Source of the DNA: Ramlibacter sp.
GTDB lineage: Bacteria; Pseudomonadota; Gammaproteobacteria; Burkholderiales; Burkholderiaceae_C
Assembly: GCA_030695945.1 (NCBI GenBank)
Contig: JAUYOG010000022.1
Location: 1-64,000 of the forward strand
Direction of reading: 5' to 3'
Length of the DNA: 64,000 nt
Position numbers and translations under genes: made by a program. Below the pieces are notes generated by a model. The model was not told the DNA's origin. It saw only the letters and a list, made by a program, of their open reading frames with translations, and searched no databases. Positions 657 to 12,578 of this stretch are shown here, piece after piece. Position 1 is the first letter of the stretch. Each line of letters starts with the position of its first letter.

Positions 657-1196
657 CTAATCGTCCTGCCCCGCGTCCAGTCCCGGAAACAGCACCTCGG
701 TGAAGCCGAACCTGCTGAAGTCGCGCACGCGCATCGGGTAGAGCTTGCCCACCAGGTGGTCGCATTCGTGCTGGACGACGCGGGCGTGGAAGCCGTCCAC
801 GGTGCGGTCGATCGAATCGCCGTACTGGTCGAAGCCGGTGTAGCGGATGCGCGACCAGCGCGGCACGATGCCGCGCAGGCCGGGAACGGACAGGCATCCC
901 TCCCAGCCCTCCTCTTCCTCGTCGCCGACCGGCGTGATGACGGGGTTGAGCAGGACCGTGCGGGGCACCAGCGGCGCGTCGGGGTAGCGGGGGTTGGGCG
1001 CGTCGGTACCGAAGATCACCAGTTGGAGGTCGACGGCGATCTGCGGCGCGGCGAGCCCTGCCCCATTGACGGCGCGCATGGTGTCGAACATGTCCGATAC
1101 CAGCAGGTGGATCTCGTCGGTGTCGAACTGCGCGACGGGCCGGGCGACACGCAGCAGGCGCGCATCGCCCATCTTCAGGATCTCGCGGACGGTCAT
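657..1196 (-). CDS. def: Peptide deformylase
   Basis: This enzyme removes the N-formyl group from nascent proteins at the ribosome exit. The 179-residue product has all three family motifs: GAGLAAPQ (residues 45-52), EGCLS (99-103, metal-ligand Cys) and HECDH (143-147, two metal His and the catalytic Glu). The ATG at 1196 is preferred over one 13 codons upstream because the family begins [10 protein letters not shown]. The start is separate from the fmt/rsm genes that often accompany def. It lies 64 nt downstream of a binding-lipoprotein gene on the same strand, so it could be read through from that operon. It may be one of several def paralogues in the genome. Confidence 0.95.
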
Positions 1197-1260
1197 GGAA
1201 ATTCCTGCGTGCTCAGTCGTTGGGCTCCCAAGCATACAGAAACCATGACCGCCTCGCCCG

Positions 1261-2829
1261 TCACTGCTTCATGGGCGCCAGCTGCCAGTAGAACTGGATC
1301 GGCGAGGTGATACCGCTGACCTTGGTGCTGAATGCGACCGGTTCGAAGAACTGGCCCAGGATGGCGACGGCGCCATCGTCCAGCACGCGCTTTTGCACCT
1401 TCTCCGCAAGCGCCTTGCGGTCGCCCTGCGTCGTGGCCCGCGCGAACGCCAGCCGCTGGCTCTCGAGCTCCTCGTCCTTCAGCCAGCCGAACCAGCCGGT
1501 GTCCGGATTGCCGGAATAGGCGATCGCGCTCGGATCCATCAGGTCACCGGCAAGCCACCATGTGTGGAACATGCTCCAGCCGCCGGCACTGACCGGCCCC
1601 TTGTTGATGCGGCGCTGCGTGAGCGTGGCCCAATCCATGGGCTGCACCTGGACGTTGAAACCGGCCTGCGCGAGCCGCTCGGCCGACACCCGCGTGAACG
1701 CCGAGATCACGGGGCTGTCGATGGGATCGAGCATCACCACCGGCGTGCCGTCGTAGCCGGCATCGCGCAGCGCAATCCTGGCCGCTTCGAGGCTGCCGGA
1801 TTTCATGATCTCGCTGCCCGCGGAGTTCGACAGCGCGGTCCCGCACGGGAACACGGAGTAGCAGGTGCGCCAGTACTTGGCGTCGCCGAGGGCCGCGGTC
1901 ATGTAGGCTTCCTGCTGCATGGCCATGATCGCCGCGCGCCGCACGGCGACCTTGTCGAACGGAGGCTGCAGCATGTTGAACCGCGCCATGCCGATGTTGC
2001 CCAGCGGATCGGTCGTCGCGACGACGACCTTCTTGTTGCCTTCGAACAGCTGCACCTCCTTGTACGAGGGCGACTCCACATAGTCCACCTGGCCGTCGAT
2101 CAGCGCGAGGGACGCAGCCCGCTGGCTCGGGTAGTAGATCCACTCGATGCGGTCGGCCTTGCCGAACTTGTTGCCCGCCGCCATCGACAGGGGCTCGGCG
2201 CGCGGCACGTAATCCTTGTTCAGGAGGTACACGACCTTGGTCCACGGCACCGACTGCCACTTGCTGTACTTGTACGGCCCCGAGCCGACGAAGCTCTTGA
2301 TCGGCTGGTACGGGTCCGTCTGCGCCACCGCCTTGGGCATCATGAAGGCCACGTTGCCGGACATCTTGGCCAGCGTCTGCAGCACCATCGCGTTGGGCGT
2401 GCGCAGTTTCAGGGTGAACGTCTTTGCGTCGGTGGCGGCCAGGCTCTCGGCCTGCGCGAACAGCTGCTGCCCCGCGCCGTCGCGCTTGCCCCAGCGCTCG
2501 AGCGACGCGACGCAGTCCTCGGCGGTGACGGCGGTGCCATCGTGCCACTTCAGGCCCTCGCGCAGCGTGAATGTCCAGGTCCTCTGGTCCGGCGACACCG
2601 TGTAGGTGTCCACCATCTGCGGCCGCGGCTCGAAGTTCTCGTCCAGCGCGAACAGCGTGTCGTAGATCAGGTAGCCATGGTTGCGCGTGATGTACGCGGT
2701 GGTCCACACCGGGTCGTACACCTTCAGCTCCGCATGCGGCGCCACGCGCAACACGTTGGCGCAGCCCGCGAGCCACATCGGCAGTGCCAATGCCATCGTC
2801 AACAGGCACGTTCGTTTGAGTTTCAACAT
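1261..2829 (-). CDS. Family-5 (oligopeptide-type) ABC transporter substrate-binding lipoprotein
   Basis: A 522-residue periplasmic binding protein of the SBP_bac_5 (DppA/OppA/NikA) family. The N-terminus is a lipoprotein signal with lipobox LAGC (Cys23). The mature part has typical features, including [20 protein letters not shown] near the start and a [14 protein letters not shown] motif. The start at 2829 is chosen because GGAGG precedes it by 7 nt and the signal peptide begins there; an in-frame ATG 13 codons upstream would bury the signal. No permease or ATPase gene is adjacent, so it either uses a remote transporter or acts as a stand-alone binder. It is the last gene of the PqqD/ATP-grasp operon, 49 nt after the urea-transporter/M23 gene, which suggests it binds a peptide-like or amine product or precursor of that system (inference). 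Confidence 0.88.
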
Positions 2830-2878
2830 ATTCAACCTCCAACAGTCGACCACAAGAAAAATCCCCATTTACGGAACA

Positions 2879-5101
2879 TCAACCGGGCCCACCCCCTCCC
2901 GCGCCCGCGCGGGCCGCGGGCTCGTACGACAGCAGCCTGAAGGTCACGCTGCCGCGCTTGAACTCCGCGTGGACGGTCACCGGGCCGCGGTAGGCCGCGA
3001 ACTGGCAATTGATCTTCGAAGGCAGCCAGGGCGAACGCGACTCCGCCCGGCACGTGACCTCCAGCGGCTTGCCATCGGGCCCCGGTTCACAGGCGCAAGT
3101 GCAGGAGACGCGCCGGAACGGGCCCGGCAAATAGGGCGCGATCGCCAGCACCAGCGGGCGCAGCAGGCCCCCCGGCGGCATCGTGGGTGCGAGGTCGATC
3201 CACGCCAATGCGGGCCTGGCCGCGTAAGGAACGCACGGCGCGCCGAGCGCCAGCAGCTTCAGGAGCGGGGACCTCGCCCGGTCGAGCTCGACCACCCTCC
3301 ACGCATCGGGATCCAGCCGCGCCACCAGCTTGCCCCCGTCGCCCGCATCCAGGACATGCTGTCCAAGGTTGTCCAGCGTGACTTCGACTCGCTGTGTGTG
3401 CCCATGTGGCCTGAAAGCCGCCGGAACCCGTCCCTTGCACTCCGACACCCAGACGGCCGAGCCCGGCGCCATGCCCACCAGCGCAAGGTACGCGGCCGGA
3501 TTCGCGGTTGCTGCCATCACCACGTCGCCTTCGGCGGGAATGCCCGAGGCCATCCATGCCCTCATCGGGCCGTGCGGCTGGGCGGCGCAGTGGTAGTTCG
3601 CCAGCCGGAACCGGCTGGTGGGCGCACCTGGCTCGGGGGCTTGCTGGAAATGCATGTGGAGGTGGGGCACCGTGGAGCGCCCGGAGTTGCCCACGCGCCC
3701 CAGGTAGGAGCCGGCTTCGACCCGTGCGCCCGGCCCCACGGCCACGCTGCCCTGCTGCAGGTGCGCGAGCAGTGCCCAGCCGCCGGCGTCCAGCCGGATC
3801 ACGACGTAGTTGCCCCATTTCTCGGCGTAGTTGCACGCGCCGAGCGTGTTGTCCGGGATCGTGTTGCGGATCCGGTCGACGATGCCGGCCGCGGGCGCCG
3901 TGACGGCGGCGCCCCAAATGGGACCGCTGTTCGCCTCGGCCGACTGCGGCCGCTGGAAATCCAGGGCGTGCCGGAACCCGTCCCTGTGGCTGAGCTTGCC
4001 GCAGAACCCCTGCGAGACCTGGAGTTCGCCGGCGACAGGCACCGCGAAGAGGGGTGCGTAAGCGCCATAGCGGGCCGTCGATTGCGCCAGCCGCCACCAC
4101 AGTTCCTCCGGCGGGACGTCCAGCGCGGCATTGCGCCAGACCGGGGCGCGCTCGCCGCCCAGCGTGAGGGCGCCCATGCCGACCCAGATCGCGACCCCCG
4201 ACGAGATCGGCAGGTAGCTGGTCGCGGACCAGTCCAGCGCATATTGCAGCGCGAGGCCGATGAAAGCCGTGACGCCACCGGCCACGGCAGCGACCGGCAG
4301 GCTGAGCCGGCCGGGCACGAAGATCACCGCGCCGATGGCCATGCCCGCGATGAAGTAGTTGTAGGAGAGCGGCAGCCAGTCGTACGCCAGCTGCAGGTCC
4401 TGCAGGACGATCGCGACGAGGGCGCCGAAGATCCAGCCCACGACGCCGCACACGAGCATCGTGCGGGACCAGAGCAGGATGCCCAGCACCACGAACAAGC
4501 CGGCACCGGGGTCGGCCGAATACATGAGCGAGGCCATCGAGCGCAGGAAGGTCGTTCCCCAGCCGACCGCGTCGAACGGCGGCTGCCAGGCAGGCATGGC
4601 GTTCGAGGCCGCAACGGTGCACTGCGGACAGACGGTGAAGAGCATGGCCGCCACGAGGCAGTAGCCCCAGAGCAGCGAGGGCATCACGCTGTCCGAGAGG
4701 ATGCGCATGAATGCGGCGGCCGCCAGTGCGGAGAGGACGGCGGCCGCGCCGGCGAGCAGCAATTGCTGGCTCCACGCCACGCCGTCCGACCCGATCATCC
4801 AGCCCGTCACCACCGCCGCCAGCAGGGCATTCGCCTTCACCCCGCCGCCCAGGCCCGGCCCATCGCTGACGCGAAGCAGGCGCTTGATGCCGGCGCCGAT
4901 GCCCAACCCGAGGACGGCGAAGGCCGCATACCGCGCGTCGCGCAGGAAGGCGAGCCACAGCACGAGGCCGATCCAGGGCCGCGGGATGAAAAAGATACTT
5001 CCCAGCGCCAAGCCCAGCGAGGAAAACGCGTCGTCGATCTTCCTGCGCGCCGCGCCGGTGGCGCGGCCTACCGGCGTTGCTGTGGCAACGGACGCTGGCA
5101 T
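2879..5101 (-). CDS. Urea-transporter-like membrane domain fused to M23 peptidase
   Basis: A 740-residue fusion. Residues about 28-310 form a polytopic membrane domain of the urea transporter (UT/SLC14) type, with glycine-rich hydrophobic repeats. Residues about 355-500 form an M23 (LytM-like) metallopeptidase domain with HALDF (378-382) and HLHMHF (480-485), matching the HxxxD and HxH zinc motifs. The last about 230 residues are an unassigned extracytoplasmic part. The ATG at 5101 has GGAGGA 6 nt upstream. It sits 19 nt after the PLP decarboxylase gene and 49 nt before the binding lipoprotein. M23 enzymes cut peptidoglycan cross-links or glycine peptides. Here the domain could process a substrate moved by, or sensed through, the membrane part. 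The actual substrate is unknown, and transport of urea itself is not established. Confidence 0.85.
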   Translation of the reverse strand: MPASVATATPVGRATGAARRKIDDAFSSLGLALGSIFFIPRPWIGLVLWLAFLRDARYAAFAVLGLGIGAGIKRLLRVSDGPGLGGGVKANALLAAVVTGWMIGSDGVAWSQQLLLAGAAAVLSALAAAAFMRILSDSVMPSLLWGYCLVAAMLFTVCPQCTVAASNAMPAWQPPFDAVGWGTTFLRSMASLMYSADPGAGLFVVLGILLWSRTMLVCGVVGWIFGALVAIVLQDLQLAYDWLPLSYNYFIAGMAIGAVIFVPGRLSLPVAAVAGGVTAFIGLALQYALDWSATSYLPISSGVAIWVGMGALTLGGERAPVWRNAALDVPPEELWWRLAQSTARYGAYAPLFAVPVAGELQVSQGFCGKLSHRDGFRHALDFQRPQSAEANSGPIWGAAVTAPAAGIVDRIRNTIPDNTLGACNYAEKWGNYVVIRLDAGGWALLAHLQQGSVAVGPGARVEAGSYLGRVGNSGRSTVPHLHMHFQQAPEPGAPTSRFRLANYHCAAQPHGPMRAWMASGIPAEGDVVMAATANPAAYLALVGMAPGSAVWVSECKGRVPAAFRPHGHTQRVEVTLDNLGQHVLDAGDGGKLVARLDPDAWRVVELDRARSPLLKLLALGAPCVPYAARPALAWIDLAPTMPPGGLLRPLVLAIAPYLPGPFRRVSCTCACEPGPDGKPLEVTCRAESRSPWLPSKINCQFAAYRGPVTVHAEFKRGSVTFRLLSYEPAARAGAGGGGPG

Positions 5102-5120
5102 GGGTCCTCCGCGCGGGTTG

Positions 5121-6554
5121 TCATCGGGACTTCGCCAGGTGCGCGGGCATGCGCTCGGGGCGCTCGATGTCGTCCAGGGCCTCCCGCGCGCGAATGAGCT
5201 CGGGTTCGCCGTCGATGCCGATCATCACGACCGCCGGGCGGTAGGCGATGAACTGCATGGACTGCGCGATGTTGTAGGCGCCTACCGGATGGATCGACAG
5301 GACATCGCCGACCTTCAGCGGAGGCAGGTCGATGGTGTACCGCACCACGTCGATCGCCATGCAAAGCGGCCCGTACAGGCGCGAGGGCGACGGCGGCGCA
5401 TTGACCTGCCGCGCGGGCAGGATGTCCATCTGGTACCACGCGGCCGTGTACAGCAGGTTGATTCCCGCGTCCAGCACATAGCTCGTCCTGCCCTCCTCAC
5501 CCAGCAACAGCTGCTCCTTGTGGCTGCGCGAGGAAAGATCGGAATTGACGGCAAGCGGCTCGCGGATGCCCTTGATGGCGACCACCGACGTGAGCAGGTA
5601 GCCGGCCTCGTCGACGAGGTGGCGGCCGCTCTCGAACCGCAACTCGGGCCTGCATTTGGCGGGCAGGCGGTTGAGCACATCGGTGATGGCGTCCGCATAG
5701 GCTTCGATGGGCGGCACCACCGCTTCCGCAGGTCCGGGCATGCCATGCAGCAGGCTGAAGGAAGGAAATCCCCCGCCGAGATTCAGGCACGGCACGAGGT
5801 GCCCGTGCTCACGATGGATCCGTTCGCGCAGCGCGACCAGCTTGGAAGCCGCGACCCGGTAGGCACCCGGCTCGAGGATGTACGTGCCGATATGCGAGTG
5901 GAAGGTGTGCAGCCTCAGTTTCCGGTTGCCCAGGATCCTGGTCGCCGCCCGCCATGCCTCGCCGTTCTCCACCGCGAACCCGAACTTGGACCAGACCGGC
6001 TGGATCCCCGCGTCCAGCCACACGCGGATGCCCACGTCCAGCGGCTGCTCCAGGCCGGCGGTCAGTTCCTCGATGAGGCTCAGCTCGTCCCAGTTGTCGA
6101 TCTGGATCAGGGCCCGCTCGCTGATCGCGCGCTCCAGGGCCGCCCGCGGCTTGTACGGCCCGTTGAAGATGATGTCCCTGCCCTCGACGCCGTGCCGGCG
6201 GGCCTTCTCGTACTCGAAGTCGGAGACGACTTCGGCCATCCAGCCTTCGCTGTGGAAGACCTCGCAGATGGCGCCCAGGTAGTTCGTCTTGTAAGACCAG
6301 GCGAAGCGCGTGTTCTCGTAGCGGCTGGTGAAGGCTTCGCGCATGCGGCGCGTCTTTTCGCGCAACCCATGCTCGGAGAACACGAACAGCGGCGAGCCGA
6401 ACTTCCGCACGAGCGACGCCACCGGGATGCCGTCGATCTCGAAGAGGGTCGGCGCGTGCGTGCCGCGCGCAAGGAAGTTCCGGTCCGCCGCCGCGTCGAG
6501 CGAGTGGCGTCCTAGTTCATTGCTGATGGCTGGCGGGAAGTAATCGAAGTTCAC
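5121..6554 (-). CDS. Fold-type III PLP-dependent decarboxylase (LysA/ornithine-decarboxylase-like)
   Basis: A 477-residue enzyme with the alanine-racemase barrel and C-terminal domain of diaminopimelate/ornithine decarboxylases. The PLP lysine is in SYKTN (Lys89). HSHIGTY (219-225), the glycine loop NLGGGF (258-263) and GAYN near 425 are present. The motif that is CESGD in true DAP decarboxylases is GPLCMA here (395-400): the cysteine is kept but the Glu/Ser are not, so the substrate is probably not DAP. The GTG at 6554 is chosen because residues upstream of it overlap the ATP-grasp gene deeply and look non-conserved; it overlaps that gene by 38 nt. It probably decarboxylates an amino acid, or an amino-acid residue attached by the neighbouring ATP-grasp ligase (inference). 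Confidence 0.85.
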   Translation of the reverse strand: MNFDYFPPAISNELGRHSLDAAADRNFLARGTHAPTLFEIDGIPVASLVRKFGSPLFVFSEHGLREKTRRMREAFTSRYENTRFAWSYKTNYLGAICEVFHSEGWMAEVVSDFEYEKARRHGVEGRDIIFNGPYKPRAALERAISERALIQIDNWDELSLIEELTAGLEQPLDVGIRVWLDAGIQPVWSKFGFAVENGEAWRAATRILGNRKLRLHTFHSHIGTYILEPGAYRVAASKLVALRERIHREHGHLVPCLNLGGGFPSFSLLHGMPGPAEAVVPPIEAYADAITDVLNRLPAKCRPELRFESGRHLVDEAGYLLTSVVAIKGIREPLAVNSDLSSRSHKEQLLLGEEGRTSYVLDAGINLLYTAAWYQMDILPARQVNAPPSPSRLYGPLCMAIDVVRYTIDLPPLKVGDVLSIHPVGAYNIAQSMQFIAYRPAVVMIGIDGEPELIRAREALDDIERPERMPAHLAKSR

Positions 6555-7638
6555 TGCTTCTTCTCTGCGGTTGTGGAACAGGTTTGAACACGCGCTCTCC
6601 CGTGCTGGCCATTTCGGCGAAGTCGGCAAAGTCACCGGCCAGGTCCATGCTGTGCCGCACGAACATCTGTCCGGCCTCGCATTCGCGCAGGGGCGCCGCC
6701 TCCCGGCGGGCGAGGCGCTCGAACAGCTGGCCGGGAAGGTTGCAGCCGATCTGAGACGGGAAATCGATCCAGGCCGGGAAGCGCGGGTTCATCTCCATCA
6801 GCGAGTGGGGCCTGCCCTGCGCCTTGATGAACTCGAGCTCGAACGGGCCATTCCATTTCAGCGCGCGGATGATCCGTTCGCACAATTCGTCGAGCGCCGC
6901 GTCCCGCACGACGATGCCCGCGAATCCCTTGCCGTTGGCGGTGCGCAGCAGCTTGCGGATCGAGCAGCTGCCGGCGATACGGCCCTTGCCGTCACCGACA
7001 CCCGCGATGTCGTACTCCTCGCCGGACAGCGTTTCCTGCACGATCACCGGCCAGCCCCAGGCCTTCACGATTTCCTCGTAGGCCGGCGCGAGGCCTTCGC
7101 GCGAGTGGACCAGGTGCGCGTGGTACAGGCGCCCTTTCACGAACACCGGGTAGCCGATCCGGGCGGCGCAACGCTCCACGGCGACCGGGTCCGCGGCGGT
7201 CAACGTCAGGGGCGTCGGCACATCGTTGTGGCGGCAGAACTCGTACAGGTGGGACTTGTGCCGCGCCTCGAACGAGCGCCTGGACGGCAGGATGCAACCG
7301 ATGTTCCATTTGCGCAGCTGCGCCGAGATCCGCGTGAAGTTCTCGATCTCCGAATCGAGGCACGGAATGACGTAGCCAATGTTCTCTTTCGCGCGGATCT
7401 CGCCCAGGCGTTCCTGCAACGCAACCACCCCCGCGCCCGGGAACGGGATCAGGTAGGCCGCGTCGGGGTGGTCCTCGCCGCGCCCGTACAGGCTGCTTTC
7501 CAGCGGGTCGTAGGACAGCCCGATGATGCGAAGCGCCTGGAAGCGCCGCCGCAGGCTGGCCACCACCGCGGCGCCGGGCTGGGGGTTCTCGCCCCGGTGC
7601 ATGCCGGTTACGGCCACGGTGCGCAGGTCCTTCGTCAT
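6517..7638 (-). CDS. ATP-grasp ligase (carbamoyl-phosphate-synthase-like fold)
   Basis: A 373-residue single-chain ATP-grasp protein. An N-terminal Rossmann-like part (1-125) is followed by the ATP-grasp core. The core has FVKG (166-169, phosphate-binding Lys), QE (201-202), and the Mg-binding ELEF...EMNPRF stretch (267-287). Enzymes of this fold join a carboxylate to an amine or thiol using ATP, through an acyl-phosphate. The start overlaps the PqqD-like gene by 4 nt (ATGA), and the end overlaps the decarboxylase gene, so the three are translationally coupled. This suggests a carboxylate-amine ligation whose product is decarboxylated next. Substrates cannot be read from the sequence. Confidence 0.85.
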   Translation of the reverse strand: MTKDLRTVAVTGMHRGENPQPGAAVVASLRRRFQALRIIGLSYDPLESSLYGRGEDHPDAAYLIPFPGAGVVALQERLGEIRAKENIGYVIPCLDSEIENFTRISAQLRKWNIGCILPSRRSFEARHKSHLYEFCRHNDVPTPLTLTAADPVAVERCAARIGYPVFVKGRLYHAHLVHSREGLAPAYEEIVKAWGWPVIVQETLSGEEYDIAGVGDGKGRIAGSCSIRKLLRTANGKGFAGIVVRDAALDELCERIIRALKWNGPFELEFIKAQGRPHSLMEMNPRFPAWIDFPSQIGCNLPGQLFERLARREAAPLRECEAGQMFVRHSMDLAGDFADFAEMASTGERVFKPVPQPQRRSSELRLLPASHQQ

Positions 7639-7943
7639 GTGGCGCTTTCGGCTTCCCGCGTATCCAGCAGGCCGGGGCCCACGAACTGGTTGAGCAGCAG
7701 CTCCACGTCGCGCACCGCGCTCGCATGGTCCAGCCCATAGCGCTCCTGAATCAGTTGCGCGAACTGGCGCACTTCCATGCCGGCGTCGTAGGAGCGCAGG
7801 AGGTAATCGGCGGCGGGTGTCAGGCGATAGAACATGCCGGACGCCGTATCGAGCACGAACCCGCCGCGGTAAAAGCGCAGGACGGCCAACCGGCGGGACG
7901 CAGGCGCTGCAGCGTCGGACTTGTTTCTTTTGGGTTCGGCCAT
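7635..7943 (-). CDS. PqqD family protein (RiPP-recognition-like fold)
   Basis: A 102-residue PqqD-like protein. The typical PqqD pattern is visible: a beta-hairpin segment (GGFVLDTASGMFYRLTPA), a leucine-containing helix and a second acidic helix with repeated xVRDVELLLNQF. PqqD folds bind leader peptides of ribosomally made, modified peptides and present them to enzymes. This is the first gene of the operon and is coupled to the ATP-grasp gene by an ATGA overlap. No radical-SAM gene is nearby, unlike in pqq clusters, and no obvious precursor peptide was found. The ribosome-binding site directly before the ATG at 7943 is weak, and a five-codon ORF with a strong Shine-Dalgarno lies just upstream. 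Confidence 0.82.
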   Translation of the reverse strand: MAEPKRNKSDAAAPASRRLAVLRFYRGGFVLDTASGMFYRLTPAADYLLRSYDAGMEVRQFAQLIQERYGLDHASAVRDVELLLNQFVGPGLLDTREAESAT

Positions 7944-7955
7944 GCGAGTTGCTCT

Positions 7956-7973
7956 TTATTTCAACTTAGCCAT
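7956..7973 (-). CDS. Five-codon upstream ORF (MAKLK) before the PqqD-like gene
   Basis: On the minus strand, a good Shine-Dalgarno (TGGAGG) is followed 2 nt later by ATGGCTAAGTTGAAATAA. That is a five-codon ORF ending 12 nt before the PqqD-like start codon. It could be a leader that couples translation to the operon, or chance. It is too short for a classical RiPP precursor. SD-to-ATG spacing is tight, which weakens the case. Confidence 0.3.
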   Translation of the reverse strand: MAKLK

Positions 7974-8155
7974 GGCCTCCAAAACTTCAGTGACCCAAAT
8001 CAAGAAGCAGTGCGTGGGTGCTGGAATAGGGCATTGGTGTTACTCCGGGCGCTGACCCGCACGACCTGTCGCCCGCATCGAAAAAGCCGCAAAATACGGC
8101 CACGACTGCCCGCCGCACGGGCGGCGCTGCTTCAACGAGGACAAGGACTTCGAAC

Positions 8156-9049
8156 GTGTTATCCCGCGCTTGCCGCAACAGGTGGAAGATCGTGCATGCC
8201 ACGAAGGTGCTGGCACGGCACCTGCCCGCGCTGTTCATCACGCTGGCCGCGTCGCTGGCGCATGCGGGCGAGCGTGTGAAGTTCGAGGCCAGCCGCGGCT
8301 ACACCTCCGCCAACGTGACCTTGCGCGCCGACATCACGAAGCCGGAAGGCGACGGCCCGTTTCCGGCCGTCGTGCTGATGCATGGCTGCGGCGGCTGGCA
8401 GCCCGCCGTGCGGTACACGATGAATTCGTATGCGCAGTTCCTTGCCGGCAAGGGCTTCGTCGTCCTGGACCTCGACAGCTTCGGCCCCCGCAATCTCGGC
8501 GGCGGCAAGGTGTGCGAGGACGTGGATCGCCAGGTCGAAGCGCTGGACTACCGCACGCATGACGCGCAGGACGCCCTGAGGTTCCTGCAGGCGCAGCCCT
8601 TCGTCGACCCCGCCAGCATCTTCCTCATGGGCCAGAGCAATGGGGGCAGCGTCGCAATCAACGTCGCCAAGGGCGACGGACCCCATCGCAACGCGGGCGG
8701 CGGCGGTGGGTACCGGGGCGTCGTGGCCTACTACCCTTGGTGCGGCTCTTTCGACCGCAGGACCGTGCGCCTGGCAGCGCCCCTCCTGATCCTCGCCGGC
8801 GGCGAGGACGACTGGACGCCGGCACGAGAATGCGAAGGCGTGAAGTCCACGGGAGCCAGGATGCAGTTCGTCGTGTACCCGCGGGCCGCCCATTCGTTCG
8901 ACCTCGAAATGATGCCGACGCATTACCTGGGCAAACGGGTGGGCAAGGACCAGGGTGCGGCGGATGACAGCCGCGCCCGGATGCTGGCCTTCTTTGTCGA
9001 ACACAGCCGGGGCCGCGCGGCGGTGGCGAGCCCGTTGGCCAAGAACTAG
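8156..9049 (+). CDS. Secreted dienelactone-hydrolase-family alpha/beta hydrolase
   Basis: A 297-residue protein with a long N-terminal signal peptide ending in SLAHA about residue 37, so the enzyme is probably periplasmic. The fold is alpha/beta hydrolase of the DLH family. The nucleophile motif is GQSNGG (Ser near 161, in place of the Cys of true dienelactone hydrolase). A downstream Asp is in GGEDDW, and the catalytic His is in RAAHSFD. Start is GTG at 8156 with an AGGACAAGGA purine stretch upstream. The substrate is not predictable; an ester hydrolase is most likely. It is transcribed away from the PqqD operon, and the 212-nt gap between them should hold both promoters. Confidence 0.85.
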   Translation: MLSRACRNRWKIVHATKVLARHLPALFITLAASLAHAGERVKFEASRGYTSANVTLRADITKPEGDGPFPAVVLMHGCGGWQPAVRYTMNSYAQFLAGKGFVVLDLDSFGPRNLGGGKVCEDVDRQVEALDYRTHDAQDALRFLQAQPFVDPASIFLMGQSNGGSVAINVAKGDGPHRNAGGGGGYRGVVAYYPWCGSFDRRTVRLAAPLLILAGGEDDWTPARECEGVKSTGARMQFVVYPRAAHSFDLEMMPTHYLGKRVGKDQGAADDSRARMLAFFVEHSRGRAAVASPLAKN

Positions 9050-9061
9050 CGGCGGCCGTTC

Positions 9062-9475
9062 TTGCCGCCCCCCTCACCTCCCCCTTCCCCGCCACCGCTC
9101 TCGACACCCGTGCGCTGGCTGTTCAAGGCCCTGGCGGTCACGAGCCTCGCGCTCGGCATCATCGGCGCCTTCATTCCGGTCATGCCCACCGTGCCGTTCG
9201 TGCTGCTCGCGGCGTGGGCCGCCGCGAAAAGCTCGCCGCGCCTGTCGCATTGGCTGGAGACGCATCCCCGCATGGGCCCCTACATTCGCGATTGGCGACA
9301 GGGCGGCGTCGTCAACCGCCGCGCCAAATGGACCGCCACGGTGATGATGTCCGGGGGGGCCCTGTTCATGAGCGTGTTCGTGCGGCCCTGGTGGGTGCCT
9401 GTCACGGCCATCACCATCATGGTCGGTGTCGGGCTCTGGCTGTGGCAGCGGCCGGAAGTGCCGCCGGTGTCCTAG
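9062..9475 (+). CDS. YbaN/DUF454 family inner-membrane protein
   Basis: A small membrane protein matching the DUF454 (YbaN) family. It has a first hydrophobic helix (LGIIGAFIPVMPTVPFVLLA), a short cytoplasmic loop with SSPRLSHWLETHP and GPYIRDW, and two C-terminal hydrophobic segments. Function is unknown across the family. The 5' end is uncertain: TTG at 9062 gives a proline-rich leader, while GTG at 9110 gives 122 residues starting VRWLFKAL and aligns better with the usual family start. Neither has a clear ribosome-binding site. It is 12 nt after the hydrolase gene, so probably co-transcribed. Confidence 0.8.
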   Translation: MPPPSPPPSPPPLSTPVRWLFKALAVTSLALGIIGAFIPVMPTVPFVLLAAWAAAKSSPRLSHWLETHPRMGPYIRDWRQGGVVNRRAKWTATVMMSGGALFMSVFVRPWWVPVTAITIMVGVGLWLWQRPEVPPVS

Positions 9476-9481
9476 GGCCCG

Positions 9482-12578
<3,097 letters not shown>

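Follow-up and report, generated by a model that had tools for sequence, protein, structure and literature searches.

The gene cassette considered here lies on the minus strand of contig JAUYOG010000022.1 of Ramlibacter sp., in a stretch of 64,000 nucleotides (nt) that is referred to below as the window. Its closest described counterparts are pathways that build a conjugate of an amino acid and then decarboxylate it. In the butirosin system BtrJ/BtrK/BtrI, the ATP-grasp enzyme BtrJ loads the carrier. According to PMC7857480, BtrK acts as a decarboxylase on an amino acid that is attached to a small carrier protein, and the pathways of rhizoferrin FigA/FigC (FslA/FslC), SbnH and AcsE first link the amino acid through an amide or an ester and then decarboxylate it with a pyridoxal phosphate (PLP) enzyme related to diaminopimelate decarboxylase (DAPDC). 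The same paper groups FigC with SbnH, AcsE, MccE and BtrK, decarboxylases that act on conjugates. By analogy, the chemistry of the cassette can be mapped on this known ligate-then-decarboxylate synthesis, as in rhizoferrin and butirosin. The cassette differs from the rhizoferrin pathway in having an ATP-grasp protein instead of a nonribosomal peptide synthetase-independent siderophore (NIS) synthetase, in the replacement of the residues proposed to bind citrate, and in the addition of a PqqD-like protein and of a urea transporter/M23 peptidase fusion (UT-M23). It differs from butirosin synthesis in that its small protein is PqqD-like rather than an acyl carrier and its hydrolase is an M23 enzyme fused to a pore.

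The core of the cassette is formed by four genes in fixed order, which encode the PqqD-like protein, the ATP-grasp protein, a fold-III decarboxylase and UT-M23. They constitute a conserved, apparently undescribed system. In the window, the core genes and domains are:

7635..7943, minus strand: PqqD-like protein of the fold of RRE (recognition element of ribosomally synthesized and post-translationally modified peptides, RiPPs), 102 aa; Pfam PqqD at 29.3 bits against a cut-off of 23.4
6517..7638, minus strand: ATP-grasp ligase, 373 aa; AlphaFold2 (AF2) model with a predicted local distance difference test score (pLDDT) of 92.6, Foldseek match to 2pn1 at 1e-20
5121..6554 (open reading frame (ORF) to 6635), minus strand: fold-III (alanine-racemase fold) PLP decarboxylase, about 477 aa; Orn_Arg_deC_N at 4e-26
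2879..5101, minus strand: UT-M23, 740 aa; Pfam UT at 1e-19 and M23 at 5e-13
4232..5005, minus strand: UT pore domain, residues 33-290; Pfam PF03253 at 1.2e-19
3638..3988, minus strand: M23 metallopeptidase domain with H372, D381, H447, H480 and H482, conserved in 56 of 56 sequences

The PqqD-like and ATP-grasp genes overlap by 4 nt. The decarboxylase probably starts at the GTG at 6554, since this start matches the 477-aa relative in L002/L010, and its overlap with the ATP-grasp gene is then 38 nt. UT-M23 begins 19 nt after the decarboxylase. A fifth gene, for a binding lipoprotein, has a likely ATG start at 2829 that yields a short hydrophobic leader, the lipobox LAGC and a 49-nt gap to UT-M23. 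The initial annotation, made from the window alone, had described five minus-strand genes at 1261-7943, the first three overlapping and the others 19 and 49 nt apart, and both this layout and its family calls (PqqD, ATP-grasp, PLP decarboxylase, UT-M23, binding protein) hold, the latter by Pfam. Pfam support for the ATP-grasp call is thin (ATPgrasp_Ter, 31.9 bits against a cut-off of 29.1), and the assignment is firm by the structure model. The operon is more than a chance arrangement, since distant genomes contain four of its five genes in the same order.

When a four-sequence ATP-grasp alignment was compared with a genome collection, at least 437 stretches were found to encode a relative (tblastn E ≤ 1e-3), not all of which need belong to the family. 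Locus counts refer to the best 80 of these stretches unless another scope is stated, and they lean towards relatives close to the window because the selection took the highest-ranking matches. All 80 loci contain the decarboxylase, 77 the PqqD-like gene and 74 UT-M23, and all four core genes occur together in 71. Order and strand are the same in 68 of these 71, with gaps below 250 nt; L053, L074 and L086 have one larger gap each. The PqqD-like gene adjoins the ATP-grasp gene in 77/80 loci. It is missing in L065 and L117, which start at a contig edge, and in L064, where no PqqD match was found ahead of the ATP-grasp gene. Four loci that do not contain UT-M23 (L056, L061, L085 and L104) have contigs that end 25 nt or less from the decarboxylase. 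The recurrence of the operon that the initial annotation had proposed to look for was found for four genes, in dozens of loci, so that the refuting condition named there, an order unique to the window, does not hold; among the loci compared, all five genes were found in this order only in L045, L046 and L048, the last from the same genome as L010 and not independent of it.

By our own grouping, the names in the genome records suggest about nine phyla: Pseudomonadota groups, Verrucomicrobia, Planctomycetes, Bacteroidetes, Cloacimonadota, Cyanobacteria/Melainabacteria, Myxococcales, Riflebacteria and Armatimonadetes. The four-gene block is kept in order from Bacteroidota to Melainabacteria, which implies that it serves a common function under selection. 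Pairwise distances of the four core proteins correlate at 0.86-0.95 (65 loci), values reached in 0 of 500 permutations. This fits joint inheritance; shared species history alone can also give such values. Within the taxonomic family the ATP-grasp protein is patchy, since only one true counterpart (G125, 68% identity) was found among 149 other genomes; the other seven hits there are partial matches of 25-30%. In the wider collection, a Ramlibacter metagenome-assembled genome encodes an ATP-grasp protein with 92% identity to that of the window.

Searches that start from UT-M23 lead to the same cassette. UT-M23 was matched at E ≤ 1e-60 in 36 of 398 Pseudomonadota genomes, and 20 of these 36 neighbourhoods were examined. 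An ATP-grasp gene lies in 18 of the 20, of which 17 also have PqqD and 17 the decarboxylase; L159 begins at its ATP-grasp gene, and L174 shows no decarboxylase. A single-protein UT-M23 search at the level of the order matched 253 of 300 genomes; among the matches listed, no more than four, apart from the window, extend into the UT part, and the others align with M23 alone. In the open-access literature, no paper joins "urea transporter" with "M23" and "ATP-grasp", or with "peptidase M23". Among the papers listed there, titles and term counts gave no sign of a description of the gene set, subscription literature and a 2009 survey of ATP-grasp amidoligase operons (doi 10.1039/b917682a), which might mention the set, being outside this scope. 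These results support the earlier statement that the operon matches no described pathway.

The decarboxylase has N-citrylornithine decarboxylase (FigC, 7kh2) as its best solved relative by sequence (3e-48). Its alignment comprises 78 sequences, from the window and 77 of the 80 loci, the fragments in L056, L085 and L104 having been dropped. K116, C425, M426 and D429 are invariant (78/78). According to PMC7857480, FigC has a methionine in place of the acidic residue beside the catalytic cysteine. Methionine follows the catalytic cysteine in all 78 sequences, as in GPSCMQHD of FigC, where the compared DAPDCs carry Cys-Glu. This FigC-like replacement, taken here as a mark of the group of conjugated-amino-acid decarboxylases, is present as judged by comparison with FigC. 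Residues were mapped from FigC to the window protein by a hand count on the alignment, with a tag offset of 19. H357, R387 and N389 of FigC, proposed to contact citrate (PMC7857480), correspond to I428 (Ile in 77/78), Q458 (78/78) and M460 (74/78). The columns of FigC T327, T330 and Y331 hold T397 (Thr in 66 and Ser in 12), W400 (77) and Y401 (76 of 78). Because the FigC-type Cys-Met is kept and the proposed citrate contacts are replaced, the enzyme probably acts on an amino acid linked to an uncharged partner other than citrate. An N-citrylornithine decarboxylase proper was rejected on these replacements and on NCBIfam FslC (188.6 bits against a cut-off of 500). Diaminopimelate decarboxylase (LysA) was rejected on 193 bits against the NCBIfam equivalog cut-off of 298 and on Cys-Met in place of Cys-Glu. 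The idea that a carboxylate is ligated and then decarboxylated, already put forward for this operon, is favoured by the active site, which resembles that of FigC (PMC7857480).

The model of the ATP-grasp protein has 2pn1 as its best Foldseek match, with carbamoyl phosphate synthetase next. The nearest amide-forming ligase is the L-amino acid ligase RizA (4e-16, rank 9), and biotin carboxylases score alike. The ATP/Mg residues K128, K168, E208, K229, E269, E282, N284 and R286 are conserved in 55/55 sequences (the window, 52 of the 80 loci, L042 and L044). Modelled fold and ATP/Mg residues are both those of an ATP-grasp carboxylate-amine ligase.

The AF2 model of UT-M23 (pLDDT 90.8) shows a third, beta-rich region after about residue 500. 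The UT half shares the fold, the two-fold repeat and the charge pattern of the urea transporters dvUT, UT-A and UT-B. It matches Pfam UT at 71 bits against a cut-off of 25, the family profile matches dvUT 3k3f at 5e-51, and Foldseek aligns the domain with dvUT 3me1 at a template modelling score of 0.79 (by target). N91 and N248 are invariant across 56 UT-M23 sequences. UT-M23 differs from urea transporters in the fusion to M23 and to an additional beta region. It also differs at the position of dvUT E187 (mapped by eye), where 43/56 sequences have Ala or Ser. The NCBIfam equivalog cut-off for urea transporters, 274.6 bits, was missed by the window protein (33.4 bits) and by its relative in L077 (102 bits).

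The family profile also matches M23 enzymes such as ShyA and lysostaphin. The M23 domain shares its fold and the Zn and catalytic His/Asp set with lysostaphin, ShyA and LasA/Blp, and its five residues are kept in 56/56 sequences (the window, 51 of the 80 loci, and L041-L044). It differs from these peptidases in its spacing, in its predicted cytoplasmic position and in its fusion to a membrane pore. The spacing from H372 to D381 is 9 in all 56 sequences, between those of two described M23 subfamilies: M23B has Hx3D (PMC9662197), and Blp has His22 and Asp36 (PMC9783410). The metal and catalytic residues expected of an M23 peptidoglycan peptidase are present; the predicted topology speaks against the extracytoplasmic access expected of such an enzyme.

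That topology was predicted from positive charges. Lysine and arginine residues (K/R) number 5.41 per protein in the four loops near the termini, against 0.80 in the six loops of the opposite side, with loop limits taken from the window model and with the N-terminal tail and the shortest turns left out of the count. The K/R-rich side is the side of the termini in 56/56 sequences, or in 54/56 when the opposite side is taken to include the in-plane helix 178-191, and in 56/56 M23 continues from the UT domain on that K/R-rich side. Both termini of human UT-B are inside (PMC5700210). No extra membrane helix was found between UT and M23, the helix 331-345 being polar (mean hydropathy -0.75). Because of the charge count, the position of the UT-B termini and the lack of an extra helix between the domains, the M23 domain most likely faces the cytoplasm and shares the cytosol with the other three core proteins.

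UT-M23 is also found beside another set of enzymes. In L041, L043, L163 and L164, the last two being the 2/20 UT-M23 neighbourhoods with a different set, it stands beside an OKR (fold-I) decarboxylase, a PRK06524-like ATP-grasp protein (529 bits in L043 and 518 in L041, below the family cut-off of 684) and a C45 N-terminal nucleophile (Ntn) protein, a penicillin acyltransferase-like acyltransferase/hydrolase. The set lies at 6880-11884 in L041, 11320-16596 in L043, 2945-8168 in L163 and from 11162 onward in L164; UT-M23 of L163 is at 8871-11042. It is likely to be again a decarboxylase with an amide-forming and an amide-handling enzyme. The attachment of two unlike decarboxylase and ATP-grasp sets to UT-M23 suggests that UT-M23 handles a common kind of product of both.

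From these features we infer a cytosolic pathway that ligates and then decarboxylates a small molecule, the product being trimmed at and passed through the cassette's own UT pore; we give this reading a probability of about 0.4. The ATP-grasp enzyme would form an amide from a carboxylate and an amine and so keep an amino acid in conjugated form; the acceptor, which would probably be peptide-like, would be presented by the PqqD-like protein. The FigC-like PLP enzyme would then strip the conjugated amino acid of its alpha-carboxylate. M23, on the cytoplasmic side and at the entrance of the UT pore, would hydrolyse one of the conjugate's amide or peptide bonds, and the small product set free would leave via the pore. 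Outside, it would be handled in many lineages by tetratricopeptide repeat (TPR) proteins and an outer-membrane barrel, and in the window type by the binding lipoprotein and a secreted hydrolase. Of this scheme, the order and spread of the genes and the folds and active-site residues of their products are observed, the membrane side is predicted, and the sequence of reactions, the direction and the product are inferred. A wider suggestion, which we offer tentatively, is that the cassette makes, in about nine phyla, a new class of exported or gated amino-acid-derived metabolites, a cytosolic M23 enzyme fused to a urea-channel fold making cleavage and membrane passage one act. If shown, an M23 enzyme that is cytoplasmic and fused to a pore would be new in kind, as the first peptidase of such a kind coupled to a channel and as an M23 enzyme without a role in peptidoglycan. 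The reading can be tested directly through its claims that the FigC-like decarboxylase has a new substrate, that M23 works in the cytoplasm, and that the UT fold serves a purpose other than urea transport. It would also caution against relying on homology alone to call such proteins urea transporter, LysA or peptidoglycan peptidase.

Where the binding lipoprotein is absent, secreted TPR proteins and barrel-like proteins often stand in its place, and their position beside the cassette favours the proposed pathway. A secreted-looking TPR protein forms a cluster in up to 55/80 loci, of which at least the 59-aa frame of L049 is spurious. Another protein, barrel-like and with weak TPR matches, was found in 21 loci. 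A barrel-like protein of 290-355 aa occurs in 15 of the 20 Pseudomonadota UT-M23 loci, and its last Trp is invariant in the 12 sequences aligned. The term barrel is read from the sequence, with no Pfam match and no PDB relative at E ≤ 1.

Several observations weigh against the proposed pathway. UT channels pass small neutral molecules, and a decarboxylated amino-acid conjugate would carry a charge. The window pore may itself differ from its relatives, since it has lost LPxxSxPF, a motif kept in the family consensus, in both repeats. The membrane side rests on residue counts, and in the window protein alone these are 4 K/R against 1. By tblastn, L119 has PqqD, ATP-grasp and decarboxylase genes and no UT-M23 in the approximately 8.6 kb beyond, and L082 has none in its remaining 2.3 kb. 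L169, a contig of 8.5 kb, holds in sequence a decarboxylase (cut), UT-M23, an unlabelled gene, a UT-TPR gene, PqqD, ATP-grasp and a decarboxylase (cut); the PqqD-ATP-grasp-decarboxylase genes after UT-M23 indicate either another gene order or a wrapped contig. Finally, the window genome (79% complete) gave no match to the barrel, a positive control having worked in G699, and none to the dedicated TPR protein, the only TPR hit being a generic one at 1.6e-8.

A RiPP-like system is unlikely. In such a system the PqqD-like protein would bind an encoded peptide, the ATP-grasp enzyme would append to it or cross-link it, the PLP enzyme would decarboxylate it and M23 would release the product. Pfam PqqD was matched at E ≤ 0.001 by 42/42 proteins scanned (the window and 41 of 77 relatives), and the profile is closest to the solved TbiB1 and TfuB1 (TbiB1 at 1.8e-12), which we take to be lasso-peptide leader-binding proteins. 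With its family match, the protein would count as an RRE-type protein, and it is like the discrete RREs TbiB1, TfuB1 and PqqD in sequence family and size. The presence of PqqD in nearly all loci and the AsnB-like and GNAT genes in L170 also favour a RiPP. Unlike those discrete RREs, the window cassette shows no radical S-adenosylmethionine (SAM) enzyme, cyclase/protease pair or precursor peptide. The initial annotation had proposed to look for a conserved small ORF next to PqqD. None was found on the plus strand within 700 nt upstream, the only regions searched, where the window and 75 loci supplied 496 ORFs of 15-90 aa. Of the eight largest clusters, which were examined individually, the largest (29 loci) is PqqD's own start; one of the next seven, which includes the window, is an antisense frame of the hydrolase gene, and the rest are limited to close relatives. 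In the window there is no room for a precursor ORF among the first three genes because they overlap. Pfam detected no radical SAM protein among the eight window proteins at 657-9475, in line with the earlier statement that the radical-SAM gene of pqq is absent, and there is no YcaO match inside the window cassette. A UT pore is also too narrow for peptides.

In L010, a gene for a HemN-type radical SAM protein is situated outside the cassette, 2 kb upstream of PqqD. The pyrroloquinoline quinone (PQQ) biosynthesis operon was rejected, neither a radical-SAM PqqE among the scanned window proteins nor, for the precursor PqqA, a conserved small ORF upstream having been found. Long PqqD frames of 262-273 aa occur in L086, L120, L156, L157, L158, L161, L162 and L165.

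Still less probable is a role in uptake or sensing, in which the UT pore would admit a small amide, M23 and the enzymes would process it, and two-component or TetR-PqqD regulators would respond. Genes for a His_kinase and a LytTR regulator directly upstream in L074, kinase/regulator pairs seen by eye beside the cassette in L070, L096 and L124, and a PqqD domain behind TetR_N in L155 fit such a role. The regulators differ between lineages, however, and an ATP-consuming ligase with a decarboxylase is typical of synthesis.

The pair in L074 is at 7783-9692, upstream of PqqD, and a similar pair was seen by eye in L077. The L155 gene, at 4413-5231, places PqqD behind a TetR DNA-binding domain and possibly encodes a product-sensing regulator; L155 is apparently the same record as L120, and the two are not independent.

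The other genes around the window cassette are:

1261..2829 (ORF to 2868), minus strand: family-5 solute-binding lipoprotein, accessory; SBP_bac_5 at 9e-62, PDB 8vdx at 1e-97
8156..9049, plus strand: divergent dienelactone-hydrolase-like protein, accessory; Pfam DLH at 1e-14
657-1235: gene for a peptide deformylase, which follows the binding-protein gene at a distance of 25 nt

The initial annotation had combined cytosolic ligation and decarboxylation with a peptidase in the periplasm and a lipoprotein for uptake, which would bring the product back. It is true that the M23 enzymes reviewed in PMC9662197 are peptidoglycan hydrolases and that the lipoprotein has a lipobox. A periplasmic M23 is opposed by the positive-inside count in 56/56 sequences and by the inside termini of UT-B (PMC5700210). 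The lipoprotein, seen before as a general part of the system, is an accessory and not a core component, being present in 4/80 loci (L045, L046, L047 and L048) and on the opposite strand in L047. As to uptake, no ATP-binding cassette (ABC) permease or ATPase gene was found among the neighbours scanned with Pfam (in the window the eight proteins at 657-9475 and two genes in addition, three genes in L047, five in L010 and one in L046). This combination is accordingly improbable as a whole. A rhizoferrin-type siderophore pathway with an ATP-grasp enzyme in place of the NIS synthetase is scarcely credible and was rejected on pocket residues, for although no solved protein is closer to the decarboxylase in sequence than FigC, 74 to 78 of 78 sequences have other residues at the positions proposed to bind citrate, and no NIS synthetase is among the scanned window genes.

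The dienelactone-hydrolase-like gene, whose product has a signal-peptide-like start (by eye), travels with the binding protein in the same four loci, L045-L048. The region 8156-9475 of the window also holds a DUF454 gene, found elsewhere only in L045 among the loci compared. A peptide deformylase homologue near the operon is likewise confined to the closest relative, L045, among those loci. An anti-phage defence system was rejected, PADLOC-DB having matched 0 families for each of the five window proteins.

Second UT proteins with TPRs were seen in L170 (5397 onward), where the AsnB-like and GNAT genes accompany one, and in L171 (5572 onward). In L051 (16852-18363) a UT-TPR protein apparently has its TPRs between the UT halves, and its gene adjoins an AMP-ligase-like gene that scores below cut-offs. 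Downstream of the operon in L010 (12556-15461) there is a mobile element, with resolvase, replication-protein and Zot-domain genes as in filamentous phages.

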